Shown piece after piece: positions 3,524 through 11,526 of a DNA stretch of 11,526 nucleotides. Where the stretch lies: positions 1-11,526 of the forward strand of contig CALCPC010000274.1 of the NCBI GenBank assembly GCA_937900975.1, given 5' to 3'. Every line of letters starts with the position of its first letter. Position 1 is the stretch's first letter. This DNA comes from an uncultured Paracoccaceae bacterium. Lineage in GTDB: Bacteria > Pseudomonadota > Alphaproteobacteria > Rhodobacterales > Rhodobacteraceae. The position numbers and the translations under genes were made by a program. The notes below the pieces were generated by a model. The model was not told the DNA's origin. It worked only from the letters and a program-made list of their open reading frames with translations, and did not search any database.

Positions 3524-4650
3524 TTAATCCTTGACCGGATATTGAAAACTGACGGGATGCGCGAACACCATATTGGGCCGGTTCGCATTGCCGTTCTCAA
3601 AAAGCTCCCGCGCGAGATCTGCCACAAGATGCGGATCTTCGGCGTGGATAAAGTGGTCGGTGTTCACGATTGCCACGCGACCAGCGGGCAAAAGATCGGC
3701 GGAGGTCATGTATTCCTGTGGCTTTTGCCCAGGATCCCGGTCGCCCTGGATCAGAAGGACCGGCATGGTCAGTTTCGGGATCACATTGGCCATGCGAAAC
3801 TCCTGCTCGATATCGAAACTGGTGCCCTGGAACGTGCGGGCCGCGGCCGCGGCCGTCCCTTCAAAGCCAAACTCCCAATCCAAACGCTGTAAAAACCGTT
3901 CTGGAAACTGGACCGAGCCATAATCGCCCGCGTAGGCCGCGCGGGCCAAACCCTCCTGGCTTTGAAACTCCATGGTGCTCCTCGCCGCGTGGGGGGCGGG
4001 CGGGGCAGTCCGTGGGGCTGATCGAAGGACTGCTGCATGCGGACATAGCCCGTGATCCGCGCGCTCATACCGTCCAAAGCGATCAAGTTTTCGCTGACGA
4101 TGGTGCCGCGGTCGTGGCTGATCAGATTGAACGTCTCGACGCCGATCACGTCGAGCAGGTTTTTCAGACTGGCCGCCGAACCGGCATAGCTGACATCGAT
4201 CTCGGGCCCTTTGTCGGACTGCCCATATCCCAGCACATCGACCGCGATGACGTAATAGTCATCGGCCAACAGCGCCATGACCTCCGCGTTGGCCCACCAG
4301 GTATCGGGATACCCATGGACCATCAGGACAACATCGTCATCGGGCGACCCGGCGGTGACGAAGTGCCAGACCGGCCCGCCGGCATCGACGAACCAATGCG
4401 TGCCGAAAACGCCGCCCCCCAAATGCTCAATCTCTCCATGCCGGCTGACCCGAAGACTTGCGGGAACCCCCTCGGGGTAGCGCCCGACATCCTCCGATAT
4501 GCGGGCAAGCGGATAGGGTTCGTATGAAAACTCTACCCAATCACTCTCGGTATCATCCGCAACCGCCGGCATCGCGACACCGATCAGCAGGGCGAAGGCC
4601 GGTAGGACAGACAACACAGACAAAACGTTGACGTTTGCAAAGGTACCCAT
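3524..4650 (-). pseudogene. Exported alpha/beta hydrolase (epoxide hydrolase/haloalkane dehalogenase-like), frameshifted
   Basis: Two adjacent minus-strand frames together encode one alpha/beta hydrolase of about 375 residues. The first (from ATG at 4650) has a signal peptide ending at AVA (residue 31), the oxyanion-hole motif HGYPDTWW (112-119) and the nucleophile motif SHDRG (Asp180). The second frame holds the catalytic acid in QGDRDP and the His in DHFIHAEDP. The Asp-Asp-His triad and HGxP motif are those of epoxide hydrolases and haloalkane/haloacetate dehalogenases. The frames meet at about 3991-4000, where the plus strand has a G6 run. Adding one G restores a continuous reading through PRPPPHAARSTMEF. 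As given, the protein would read about 75 out-of-frame residues and stop at 3781, losing the acid and His. It may be a true pseudogene, phase variation or a sequencing error. The substrate is unknown. Confidence 0.85.
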
Positions 4651-8047: not shown

Positions 8048-9163
8048 ATGGAGTTTCTAGCCGTCAGCCATAACGGTTTTCTGGTGTTCATGTCCTGCTT
8101 TGTCGCCCTGGTGGCAGGGTTCACCGGGCTTTCGATGACCCGCGATCTTGCGCTGAAGCCGGTGACCGAAAAAAAGGCCTCCATCGCGCTTGGCGCTGTG
8201 GCGCTGGGCGGCGGGATCTGGGCCATGCATTTCGTTGCGATGCTGGGGCTGCAACTGCCGATCCTGTTTTACTATGACGCGGCGATCACGCTGGTCTCGG
8301 CTTTGGCGGCGAGCTTGATCGTTGGCGCGGCGCTGATCCTTCTGCATTTTGCCGAGCGGACGCGAGCGACCATCGCGCTTGCGGGCGGGATTGTCGGCAT
8401 CGGCGTTCTGGTCATGCATTACATCGGCATGGCGGGGTTAGAGCTTTGCCGCGCCATCTACACGCCCGCGGGCGTCGTCGGCTCCTCCGTCGTTGCGGTT
8501 GGCCTGTGCATCGTGGCCTTCGGCGTTGCCTATGGGCGGCGGACCAAGAAAAACATCGTTCTCGGCACGCTCTGTTTTGCGGCGGCCGTCTGCTCGGTCC
8601 ATTTTCTGGCGATGGCCGGAACCCGGTTCGTCCCGGTGACCGAGGGGGTGGAGTTTGGCCCATCGATCAGCAACGAAACCTTGGCTTTGGGCGTGATCGT
8701 CTTCAGCTTTGTGATCTTCGGCGCCTGTCTTTGGGTCAGCGTCACCTACCTGCCCCGGCCCGCGGCCCCCGCCCCGGCACCGCAAGACGGCCCCGTCGGC
8801 GCCCCGCCCCCCTTGCAAATCCCGTGTGAGCGCGATGGCGGCAAGGTCTTTATCGCAGCCCAAGACGTGACCTTTGTCCGCGCCGATGGGCATTACACCC
8901 AAGTCTATACCGAGCGTGAGCGTTTTTTCTGCGTCTGGCCGGTGACCGAGGCTGCCAAGCGGCTGGTGCCGGTGGGGTTTCTGCAAACCCACCGCAGCTA
9001 TCTTGTGAACCCCGCCCGCGTCGCGCGGTTCGAGCGGACCAAGGATAAGGGCCGCTGCGTCTTTGATGGCGCGGATCTGCCGCCCGCCCCGGTGAGCCGG
9101 TCAAAGCTCAAAACCATCCAGGACGCTTTGGCGCCGAAGGCGGGCGCACTTCGTGCGGGCTGA
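8048..9163 (+). CDS. coxC: MHYT-LytTR membrane sensor/transcription regulator (CoxC-like)
   Basis: This 371-residue protein joins a seven-helix MHYT sensor domain to a cytoplasmic LytTR DNA-binding domain, the architecture known for CoxC and CoxH of Oligotropha carboxidovorans. The MHYT repeats are visible as AMHFVAM (from about residue 59), VMHYIGM (about 123) and SVHFLAM (about 183). This domain has been proposed to bind a metal, perhaps copper, and sense CO, O2 or NO. A proline/alanine-rich linker (about 235-257) leads to the LytTR domain, with FVRADGHYTQVYT and FLQTHRSYLVNPARV as hallmarks. The ATG at 8048 is the only start giving the family N-terminus MEFLAVSHNG, although no Shine-Dalgarno sequence precedes it. 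The position just ahead of coxMSL matches coxC. A cluster of direct repeats at its 3' end may be its own binding site. Confidence 0.93.
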   Translation: MEFLAVSHNGFLVFMSCFVALVAGFTGLSMTRDLALKPVTEKKASIALGAVALGGGIWAMHFVAMLGLQLPILFYYDAAITLVSALAASLIVGAALILLHFAERTRATIALAGGIVGIGVLVMHYIGMAGLELCRAIYTPAGVVGSSVVAVGLCIVAFGVAYGRRTKKNIVLGTLCFAAAVCSVHFLAMAGTRFVPVTEGVEFGPSISNETLALGVIVFSFVIFGACLWVSVTYLPRPAAPAPAPQDGPVGAPPPLQIPCERDGGKVFIAAQDVTFVRADGHYTQVYTERERFFCVWPVTEAAKRLVPVGFLQTHRSYLVNPARVARFERTKDKGRCVFDGADLPPAPVSRSKLKTIQDALAPKAGALRAG

Positions 9164-9177
9164 GGCGCATTTCGTGC
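9143..9177 (+). promoter_or_regulatory. Two 21-bp-phased direct repeats, candidate LytTR (CoxC) binding site
   Basis: GGCGCACTTCGTGC (9143-9156) and GGCGCATTTCGTGC (9164-9177) match at 13 of 14 positions and start exactly 21 bp apart, i.e. two helical turns. LytTR regulators such as AgrA and AlgR bind paired direct repeats with about this period. The first copy lies in the last codons of the MHYT-LytTR gene and the second just after its stop, about 100 bp before coxM. The link to CoxC is inference from geometry and position. Confidence 0.5.
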
Positions 9178-9195
9178 AAAAGACCTGTTTATCAT
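9167..9195 (+). promoter_or_regulatory. Candidate coxMSL promoter
   Basis: TATCAT at 9190-9195 matches the sigma-70 -10 consensus at 5 of 6 positions. The -35 position 17 bp upstream (9167-9172, GCATTT) is poor and falls inside the second direct repeat, as expected for a promoter that needs an activator. The surroundings (9178-9205) are AT-rich compared with the flanking genes. The 110-bp coxC-coxM gap leaves room for a leader of roughly 70 nt. Confidence 0.35.
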
Positions 9196-9273
9196 TGATT
9201 TTTTGAAGCCAAGCCGTGCCGCTCCGGGCAGGTGTTGCGCTCAAAAAAATCCATGAACAGGGAGGCGCGCCAG

Positions 9274-10128
9274 ATGATTCCAGCCGCATTCGACTATTAC
9301 AGACCCAAGGACATGGCCGGTGTCCTTGCCTTGCTCGACACGCATGGCGATGACGCAAGGGTCATCGCCGGCGGTCACAGCCTGATCCCAATGATGAAAC
9401 TGCGCATGGCGGATGTTCAGCATCTGATCGACCTGCAGGATGTGGGCGGCCTTTCGGACATCGAGATTGGCGCCGAAAGCGTGCGTTTGGGCGCTTTGGT
9501 AACACAGGCCGATATCATCGATCACACTGGCCTCGCGACGGCTGCGCCGATCCTGCGGGAAGCCGCGCTGCAAATCGCCGATCCCCAGGTCCGGTCGATG
9601 GGAACCGTCGGGGGCAACGTGGCCAACGGCGATCCGGGCAACGACATGCCGGGCCTGATGCAGTGCCTTGACGCGACCTTCAGTCTGGTCGGGCCCGAGG
9701 GGTCCCGCGACGTTCCGGCGCGGGCGTTCTACGAGGCGGCCTATATGACCGCGCGCGCCGATGACGAAGTGTTGACAGCCGTCTCGATCCCGCGTCCCAC
9801 GGGCGGCTTTGCCTATGAAAAGCAAAAGCGAAAGATCGGCGATTACGCGACCGCCGCCGCCGCTGTCCAGATGGTGCGGGCCGGCGAGACCTGCGCCTCG
9901 GCGGCGATTGCGATGACCAATCTCAGCGACACGCCGGTCTTCTCGGCCGCTGCGGGCGCCGCGCTGGAGGGCACGCGCGTCGACGATGCCGCGATCAAGA
10001 CGGCCGTGGCCGCGATGCTGGCCGATATCGACCCCACCGAAGACAACCGCGGCCCCGTCGCGTTCAAAAAACATGTGGCCGGCGTGATCCTAAGCCGCGC
10101 CATCGCACGCGCCTGGTCGCGGGCGTAA
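9274..10128 (+). CDS. coxM: CO dehydrogenase medium (FAD) subunit CoxM
   Basis: This 284-residue flavoprotein subunit of the aerobic Mo-Cu CO dehydrogenase passes electrons from the iron-sulphur subunit via FAD to the quinone pool. The two FAD pyrophosphate-binding motifs are at the family positions: AGGHS (32-36) and TVGGN (111-115, TIGGN in the Oligotropha enzyme). The conserved [10 protein letters not shown] and [10 protein letters not shown] segments surround the second motif, and [18 protein letters not shown] follows. The start at 9274 is set by GGGAGG at 9260-9265 and by the family N-terminus [11 protein letters not shown]. An ATG 7 codons upstream has no ribosome site. The gene order M-S-L is that of form I cox operons, and coxS follows after 11 nt. 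Confidence 0.97.
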
Positions 10129-10139
10129 GGGAGGATACG

Positions 10140-10634
10140 ATGCCGAAAAAACAGCACTACACACTGACAGTGAACGGCCGGGAAGAGGAATTTCTGGCCG
10201 AACCGCGGGAGCTTTTGATCTATACCCTGCGTGAGCGGCTGAACATCACCGGGCCCCATATCGGGTGCGAAACCTCCCATTGCGGCGCCTGTACCGTCAC
10301 GCTGAACGGCAAATCGGTGAAGGCCTGCACCCTGTTCGTGGCCCAGGCCGATGGCGCCGAGATCACGACGATCGAAGGGATCGGTGGGCCCGACGATCTG
10401 CACCCGCTGCAGGTCGCTTTCAAAGAGCATCACGGCCTTCAATGCGGCTATTGCACGCCGGGGATGATCACGCGGGCAACCAAGCTTTTGGAAGAGATCC
10501 CGAACCCGACCGAGGAAGAAATCCGCTTTGGCATGGCCGGCAATATCTGCCGCTGCACGGGCTACCAAAACATCGTGAAATCCATCCAAGCCGCCGCCGC
10601 CGAGATGAGCGCCGCGAAGGAGGCCGCAGAATGA
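10140..10634 (+). CDS. coxS: CO dehydrogenase small (2x[2Fe-2S]) subunit CoxS
   Basis: This 164-residue iron-sulphur subunit transfers electrons from the Mo-Cu centre in CoxL to the FAD in CoxM. The N-terminal plant-type ferredoxin domain has Cys43, Cys48, Cys51 and Cys63 ([10 protein letters not shown] and KAC). The C-terminal helical domain has Cys102, Cys105, Cys137 and Cys139 (CGYC and CRC), so both cluster sites are complete. Length and cysteine spacing agree with the Oligotropha protein as recalled. GGGAGG at 10129-10134 lies 5 nt before the ATG. The stop overlaps the coxL start (ATGA at 10631-10634), which would keep subunit synthesis balanced. Confidence 0.98.
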
Positions 10635-11526
10635 AGGACGAGGTCGATACCCGCGAAGACCGCGTTGCCAACCTAAAAGGGCTGGGCTGTTCGCGCAAAC
10701 GCGTCGAGGACGCGCGCTTTACCCAAGGCAAGGGAAATTACGTCGATGATCTAAAGCTCGACGGGATGCTGTTCGGCGATTTTGTACGCTCTCCTTACGC
10801 ACATGCGCGGGTTGTCAGCATCGACACCGCCGCCGCGTTGGAGGTTCCGGGCGTGCTTGCCGTGCTGACGGCCAAGGATCTGGAACCGCTCGGGCTTCAC
10901 TGGATGCCGACGCTTGCGGGCGACAAACAAATGGTGCTGGCCGATGGCAAGGTGCTGTTCCAAGGCCAGGAGGTCGCTTTCGTCGTCGCCGAAGACCGGT
11001 TCGCGGCCGCCGACGGGATCGAGGCGGTGACGGTTGAATATGAGGAGCTGCCCGTCCTCGTCGATCCGTTTGAGGCGCTGAAATCCGACGTTGTGCTGCG
11101 CGAGGATCTGGTGGCCCCCGACGGCACCCTGCCCGATGGCGCGCACGGGCCGCGCAAACACGCCAACCACATCTTCACCTGGGAAGCGGGCGACAAGCCA
11201 ACGACCGCGGAGGTGCTCGCGAACGCCGATATCGTCGCCGAAGAGACGATGTCCTCCCCCCGCCCGCCTCCCTGCCCCCTGGAACCCTGCGGCTGCGTCG
11301 CCTCGATGGACAAGGTGAACGGCAAGCTGACGCTCTATGGCACCTTCCAGGCGCCGCACGCGATCCGAACGGTCGTCTCGTTGATCTCCGGCATCGAAGA
11401 GCACAACATCCGCGTGATCTCGCCCGACATTGGCGGCGGCTTCGGCAACAAGGTGGGCGCCTATCCCGGCTATGTCTGCTCGGTCGTGGCGTCCATCGTC
11501 ACCGGTAAGCCGGTCAAGTGGATCGA
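10631..11526 (+). CDS. coxL: CO dehydrogenase large (Mo-Cu) subunit CoxL, form I type, 3'-truncated by window edge
   Basis: The first 298 residues of the catalytic subunit (full length about 800) are open to the window end. It binds molybdopterin cytosine dinucleotide and the Cu-S-Mo centre that oxidises CO to CO2. The text follows form I CoxL closely: [20 protein letters not shown], then [49 protein letters not shown] with the active-site Gln at residue 240 exactly as in Oligotropha, and [19 protein letters not shown]. The diagnostic AYxCSFR loop (near residue 385) lies beyond the edge, so form I is inferred from overall similarity. Residues 208-219 are unusual: [12 protein letters not shown] replaces the conserved YHRVHP-x-PLET pattern. 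The start is the ATG overlapping the coxS stop. Confidence 0.95.

Follow-up and report, generated by a model that had tools for sequence, protein, structure and literature searches.

Conserved direct repeats upstream of coxM as a probable operator of the membrane-bound MHYT-LytTR regulator CoxC

Described operators and the coxC-coxM locus

The oxidation of CO by marine Rhodobacterales and other Alphaproteobacteria represents a sizeable biological sink for this gas. In the literature searched, a direct study of the switching of cox genes by CoxC was found for a carboxidotroph, Afipia carboxidovorans OM5, whose CoxC operator at the promoter PcoxB was published in 2024 (Durante-Rodriguez et al., NAR, PMC11347149); the statement of the initial annotation of the present DNA that no binding site was defined for regulators of this type is thereby superseded. 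According to the portions of that article drawn on here, in E. coli Afipia CoxC acts as a repressor of PcoxB, to which it binds, CO relieves the repression, copper is required for the effect of CO, and the LytTR domain of the protein binds direct repeats. Three TTNNNGCN repeats were assigned to the PcoxB operator, which was described as having 18–21 bp between repeats and overlapping the −35 box of the target promoter.

Two further kinds of LytTR site are given in the same portions of PMC11347149. The operator of RcoM1 (Paraburkholderia xenovorans LB400) is a triplet of TTCNNGCA with spacers of 12–13 bp and a period of 20–21 bp, from which RcoM1, like most LytTR regulators, activates at a position upstream of the −35 box. 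The canonical LytTR site is formed by two 9-bp direct repeats placed 10–13 bp apart.

The DNA analysed here (the window) is a stretch of 11,526 nucleotides from an uncultured Paracoccaceae bacterium, and its features are collected in Table 1. The coxC product gave matches to PF03707 (E 2e-29) and PF04397 (E 8e-16; scanned from 8054), so that the regulator adjoining the repeats has both the MHYT and the LytTR domain expected beside a CoxC-type operator. The start of coxM, the presumed target gene of the repeats, was placed at the ATG at 9274 by alignment with relatives, and the ATG of coxL overlaps the stop codon of coxS. The third MHYT motif of the window CoxC reads VHF, likewise in three other aligned Rhodobacterales proteins, and MHY in the CoxC of Afipia and Bradyrhizobium; one proposed copper-binding Met is thus Val in the window protein. 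Elsewhere in the window (3524–4650, minus strand), a gene that resembles an alpha/beta hydrolase, as judged from its sequence, is split into two overlapping frames in a way that resembles a frameshift or a sequencing error.

Table 1. Features of the coxC-coxM region of the window (scores are those of the 13-position matrix described in the text)
Feature	Position	Strand	Remarks
coxC	8048..9163	+	MHYT membrane sensor and LytTR DNA-binding domain, 371 aa
DR1, first putative operator repeat (C GCACTTCGTGC G)	9145..9157	+	in the 3' end of coxC; 16.2 of a maximum of 23.4
DR2, second putative operator repeat (C GCATTTCGTGC A)	9166..9178	+	equal to the matrix optimum, 23.4 of 23.4
DR3, proposed third repeat (GTTTATCATTG)	9187..9197	+	degenerate; 41 bp after DR1; contains TATCAT
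coxM ribosome-binding site, GGGAGG	9260..9265	+	likely, from sequence
coxM	9274..10128	+	aerobic CO dehydrogenase medium subunit, FAD-binding; PF00941 and PF03450
coxS	10140..10634	+	small [2Fe-2S] subunit, co-directional; PF01799 and PF00111
coxL	10631..11526	+	large subunit, truncated at the window end; TIGR02416 E 1e-128 (scanned from 10640)

The two 14-bp repeats pointed out in the initial annotation are present as described: GGCGCACTTCGTGC (9143–9156) and GGCGCATTTCGTGC (9164–9177) share 13 of 14 bases, their starts lie 21 bp apart, and the first copy, which precedes the coxC stop codon (9161–9163), lies inside the gene of the regulator. The window and Afipia PcoxB have in common an MHYT-LytTR gene beside coxMSL, direct repeats with a TT...G core (three at PcoxB; two strong copies and a proposed third in the window) and a cox gene as target, presumed in the window, and the sequences TTCGTGCG (9150–9157) and TTCGTGCA (9171–9178) fit the published TTNNNGCN; the third copy (9187) does not. 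The putative window operator precedes coxM and lies partly in coxC, whereas the operator described in the portions of PMC11347149 used here is at PcoxB; the window spacers between 8-bp cores measure 13 and about 12 bp, compared with 18–21 bp as published, and do not match the published register, although a triple spaced by 21 + 20 bp overlaps the published site in Afipia. With RcoM1 the window shares a LytTR protein for aerobic cox genes and the period of 20–21 bp: DR2 (TTCGTGCA) matches the RcoM consensus TTCNNGCA exactly and DR1 (TTCGTGCG) in five of its six fixed letters, with a period of 21 bp, whereas the third repeat does not fit it. RcoM is described there as a haem sensor and an activator, in contrast to the MHYT-type, membrane-bound regulator of the window. 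As in canonical LytTR sites, the direct repeats are two helical turns apart, and the window differs from these sites, as far as they are described in that source, by its extended core GCAnTTCGTGC and the weaker third copy.

Conservation of the repeats and their association with coxM and coxC

Taken alone, the bare pair (14-mers, at most one mismatch, lag 15–60) is weak evidence, since 32 of 200 sequences simulated from the window with a first-order Markov model contain at least one comparable pair; it is unique in the window under the same definition. The pair becomes significant because it is conserved across coxC-coxM loci. Of 394 genomes of the family, drawn from a larger group, 97 contain relatives of CoxC (E ≤ 1e-30), the window's own genome being one of them. 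Together with six plasmid records these gave 103 loci, after removal of L001, L002 and L105, which were duplicates or a paralog. coxM directly follows coxC in 98 of these loci, the exceptions being L021, L075, L080, L094 and L099. DR1 and DR2 of 92 of these loci were used to derive the matrix. Its training excluded the three weak loci L046, L100 and L104 as well as the window, Afipia and Bradyrhizobium, and the latter three serve, with the other orders, as independent tests. Two GCAnTTCGTGC units placed 20 or 21 bp apart, at most 230 bp before coxM, reach a score of at least 20 in 96 of the 98 loci (the remaining ones are L100, with 15.5, and L104, with 9.7), and none of the control stretches of equal length reaches 15, either inside coxM (0/98) or inside coxC (0/98). 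The core of the repeat across loci reads C-GCA-n-TTCGTG-C-a and most spacer letters between the units vary. The 21-bp period emphasized in the initial annotation holds among close loci (33 of 35 with a CoxC identity of at least 59%) and is mostly replaced by one of 20 bp in distant loci (45 of 60). In the 95 loci whose pair has no more than four mismatches, the distance from the start of DR1 to coxM is 106–165 bp, with a median of 130.

Column frequencies revealed a further degenerate copy downstream of DR2. The matrix was not trained on this third copy, and three loci with more than four mismatches were omitted from the corresponding test: among 29 downstream offsets, +41 from DR1 ranks first in 53 of 95 loci and an offset of +40 to +42 does so in 73, the other 22 being without such a best copy. 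Spacings of 21 + 20 and of 20 + 21 bp both total 41 bp. DR3 of the window itself scores poorly (−16.7); it is considered likely to represent a real contact. The initial annotation counted two repeats. The TATCAT at 9190–9195, 12 bp past the second 14-bp copy and taken at first for a good −10 box, falls on the third repeat and shows no conservation as a −10 element: among 33 close loci, window included, it is found in the window only, and TTTCAT in 14. An upstream candidate for the third repeat, TTGGCGCC (9128–9135), which matches the published TTNNNGCN by letters, was rejected, each upstream offset being the best in at most 17 of 95 loci (−21 in 14).

A named scan extending to other orders covered the best 80 of 588 relatives, some of their contigs being identical to earlier loci. 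coxM follows coxC in 68 of these 80. A score of 25 or more is reached by 63 of the 68, including records titled Afipia, Methylovirgula, Peteryoungia, Rhizobium, Nisaea and Fulvimarina; by record titles, scores of this size occur in genera of the Hyphomicrobiales (Afipia, Rhizobium, Methylovirgula) and in the Rhodospirillaceae. The loci below 20 (5/68) are L125, L130, L156, L165 and L191, the last three from Granulosicoccus/Granulosicoccaceae; a fourth such locus, L151, scores 25.6. In these four loci coxC and coxM are present, with repeats more or less diverged in the same gap, and a change of the site together with the regulator is suggested for this group. Of the 12 loci without coxM nearby, 11 score below 0 over the whole locus and L126 (Afipia sp. 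MAG) scores 21.3. There, at position 2586 of the minus strand, a repeat triple (third copy 1.4) is seen at an MHYT-LytTR gene, before a divergent ORF of 226 aa that looks by eye like a membrane protein; it is perhaps a non-cox target of the MHYT-LytTR regulator family.

The element stays with coxM when coxC is distant. In three genomes in which the two genes are separated by about 4 kb (G007), 14 kb (G328) and 31 kb (G279), the pair starts 117–127 bp before coxM (G186 and G296 resemble contig breaks and were excluded from the unlinked count). In the window's own genome the pair, with up to three mismatches, occurs once, in the coxC-coxM gap (three matches in the backwards control). A strict pattern, CACGARNTGC-N(10-11)-CACGARNTGC, was found in 58 of the 394 genomes, at one place per genome, and the backwards pattern, counted by eye, in about 21. 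The strict pair is present in 57 of the 97 genomes with coxC versus 1 of the 297 without it; all 57 pairs end 88–136 bp before the start of coxM, and the one coxC-less genome with a strict pair (G382) carries it in a locus without a cox match (L110). coxM was detected at E ≤ 1e-80 in 100 of the 394 genomes. Among the five of these outside the coxC list, G008 and G083 have no site, their best scores (−1.8 and 3.8) lying away from coxM; G109 (L118), in which no coxC passes E 1e-30, has a partial pair (16.6) 121 bp before coxM, which would be either a relict or the site of a diverged regulator; the contig of G102 ends 69 bp upstream of coxM; and the coxM match of G354 begins at residue 73. The coxC genomes outside the coxM list are G017 (9.7, no good site) and G344 (a site scoring 34.2).

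Possible modes of action at coxM

The element is genuine and deeply conserved, and it is best read as an operator of a recently described kind. Judging from the sequences, CoxC very probably binds the repeats. The initial proposal that the MHYT-LytTR protein acts directly on coxM through phased direct repeats is supported by their conservation, by their permanence with coxM, by their co-occurrence with coxC and by seven genomes in which CoxC is the sole LytTR match (see below). In our main reading, to which we give a probability of roughly 60%, CoxC uses the repeats as its operator and controls coxMSL by CO-relieved repression, by analogy with Afipia; the choice of repression over activation at coxM, taken by itself, appears probable on the same analogy. 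A CO-relieved repressor is the simplest reading because of the homology to Afipia CoxC (only 32% identity with the window protein). In such a mechanism, two strong and one weak GCAnTTCGTGC, spaced by 21 + 20 bp (41 bp in total), would face the same side of the helix, each taking one LytTR domain of membrane-bound CoxC, and the LytTR contacts would all be made from that side, at the membrane. Without CO, CoxC would occupy the operator, covering the beginning of the coxM promoter, and block it; the action of CO on the copper-dependent MHYT domain would release CoxC and allow the transcription of coxMSL, both steps being modelled on Afipia.

CoxC could instead activate coxM from the same operator, as the initial annotation implied, DR2 and DR3 replacing the missing −35 box and RNA polymerase being recruited as with RcoM. 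This alternative, which we consider possible though unlikely, is favoured by the lack of any recognised sigma-70 promoter, or consensus −35/−10 pair, in 9050–9290, by the activation that PMC11347149 ascribes in the portions used here to RcoM1 and to most LytTR regulators, from upstream of −35, and by the resemblance of the window period and core to the RcoM site TTCNNGCA. However, the sole MHYT-LytTR protein tested in those portions represses, and DR3, on the spot of the proposed −10 box, is better suited to blocking. The comparison with LytTR-activated promoters made in the initial annotation finds no support in the only CoxC tested there, a CO-relieved repressor. A sigma-70 promoter further downstream was rejected for lack of a convincing consensus; when scores are averaged across loci, the highest-scoring hexamer pair begins 27–28 bp after DR1, inside DR2, and its score is not independent of DR2.

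It is very improbable that the site is used by another LytTR protein such as RcoM and not by CoxC. In favour of such a protein, the core TTCGTGCA agrees with the consensus TTCNNGCA that PMC11347149 gives for RcoM and, in a LytTR domain scan of 26 genomes (25 with coxC), 18 of the 25 have 2 to 6 matches; against this, CoxC is the sole match in seven (G000, G013, G035, G055, G232, G237 and G249, the window's own genome among them), all of which keep the pair with 0 to 3 mismatches, and the strict pair tracks coxC as described above. G000 is only 78% complete and the other six are 99–100% complete. Regarding RcoM, no LytTR match besides CoxC was found in the window's assembly, a result that is not final at 78% completeness, nor in the six relatives of 99–100% completeness carrying the pair.

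A constraint on the coding of the CoxC C-terminus or on a structure at the 3' end of the coxC mRNA would agree with the position of DR1 before the coxC stop in 25 loci, the window included, and is contradicted by the 69 loci in which DR1 lies past it (four were skipped) and by the three genomes in which the motif is found before coxM although coxC is kilobases away. The distribution of DR1 on both sides of the stop places the constraint on the DNA, and we regard this explanation as highly improbable. Chance, compatible with the comparable bare pairs seen in the simulations of the window, is contradicted by the conservation of the repeats in two partly overlapping sets of 98 and 68 loci from several orders and can for practical purposes be set aside.

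As an operator of CoxC, the element would offer a precise site conserved across many genera and predict which coxM genes CoxC controls; it revises the proposed −10 box and bears on the register published for PcoxB. Autoregulation of CoxC through a similar site before coxC was rejected, no second comparable pair being present in the window, where the next-best pair scores are 6.7 (DR2/DR3 itself) and 2.8. A conserved hairpin in the coxM leader was likewise rejected (window z −1.3; across 33 close loci, mononucleotide shuffles gave an average z of −1.2, and 6 of the 33 fell below −2). In the coxM leaders of L003, L004, L007 and L049, an upstream C/T-rich stretch (e.g. CTTCTCCC) could pair with the AGGGAGG ribosome site; the folding scores are unexceptional and the pairing is absent from the predicted fold of the window.

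The element and the Afipia cox cluster

On pHCG3 (133,057 bp, both strands), the matrix built without Afipia ranks PcoxB first (25688; 22.8) and the coxC-coxM gap second (28728; 20.7), the maxima of 20 Markov simulations of pHCG3 ranging from 4.2 to 19.3. These ranks suggest a register for PcoxB other than the published one, and a candidate operator of its own for the Afipia coxM. By the new matrix, the PcoxB units start at 25688, 25709 and 25729 (21 + 20 bp) and overlap the published site. The motifs substituted at PcoxB, according to the portions of PMC11347149 used here, are separated by 29 and 26 bp on the plasmid (TT at 25704, 25733 and 25759), in contrast to the 20–21 bp of the window, and the altered bases fall at 25704, 25705 and 25709; 25733, 25734 and 25738; and 25759, 25760 and 25764. 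The stretches 25688–25698 and 25716–25719 are left unchanged by these substitutions. In the new register, the first published mutant changes the G that opens the second unit and is nearly invariant, and in the second mutant three conserved bases of the third unit are altered in addition; loss of binding as published is compatible with both registers.

We lean towards a general and ancestral CoxC operator placed before coxM and formed by three GCAnTTCGTGC over about 41 bp, of which the PcoxB repeats would be the same element read out of register, with two more candidate operators in Afipia, one in the coxC-coxM gap and one after coxH, before coxI. A CoxC operator before coxM with this layout was not found in the open-licence literature searched (titles and abstract openings). 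The scores of the third and fourth places on pHCG3 fall inside the span of the simulated maxima: 66367 (16.1), within a hydrogenase-like gene, is perhaps due to chance, and 37940 (15.5) immediately follows the second MHYT gene and precedes coxI. This gene is coxH by the gene order in the portions of PMC11347149 used here. At 37940–37992 (L112) a repeat triple is seen, GCAGTTCATGC, GTAGTTCGTGT and CAAACTCGTGA, spaced by 20 + 22 bp, which by its sequence is a possible further operator. If the whole of this reading holds true, membrane-bound CoxC/CoxH would control the Afipia cox cluster at three points.
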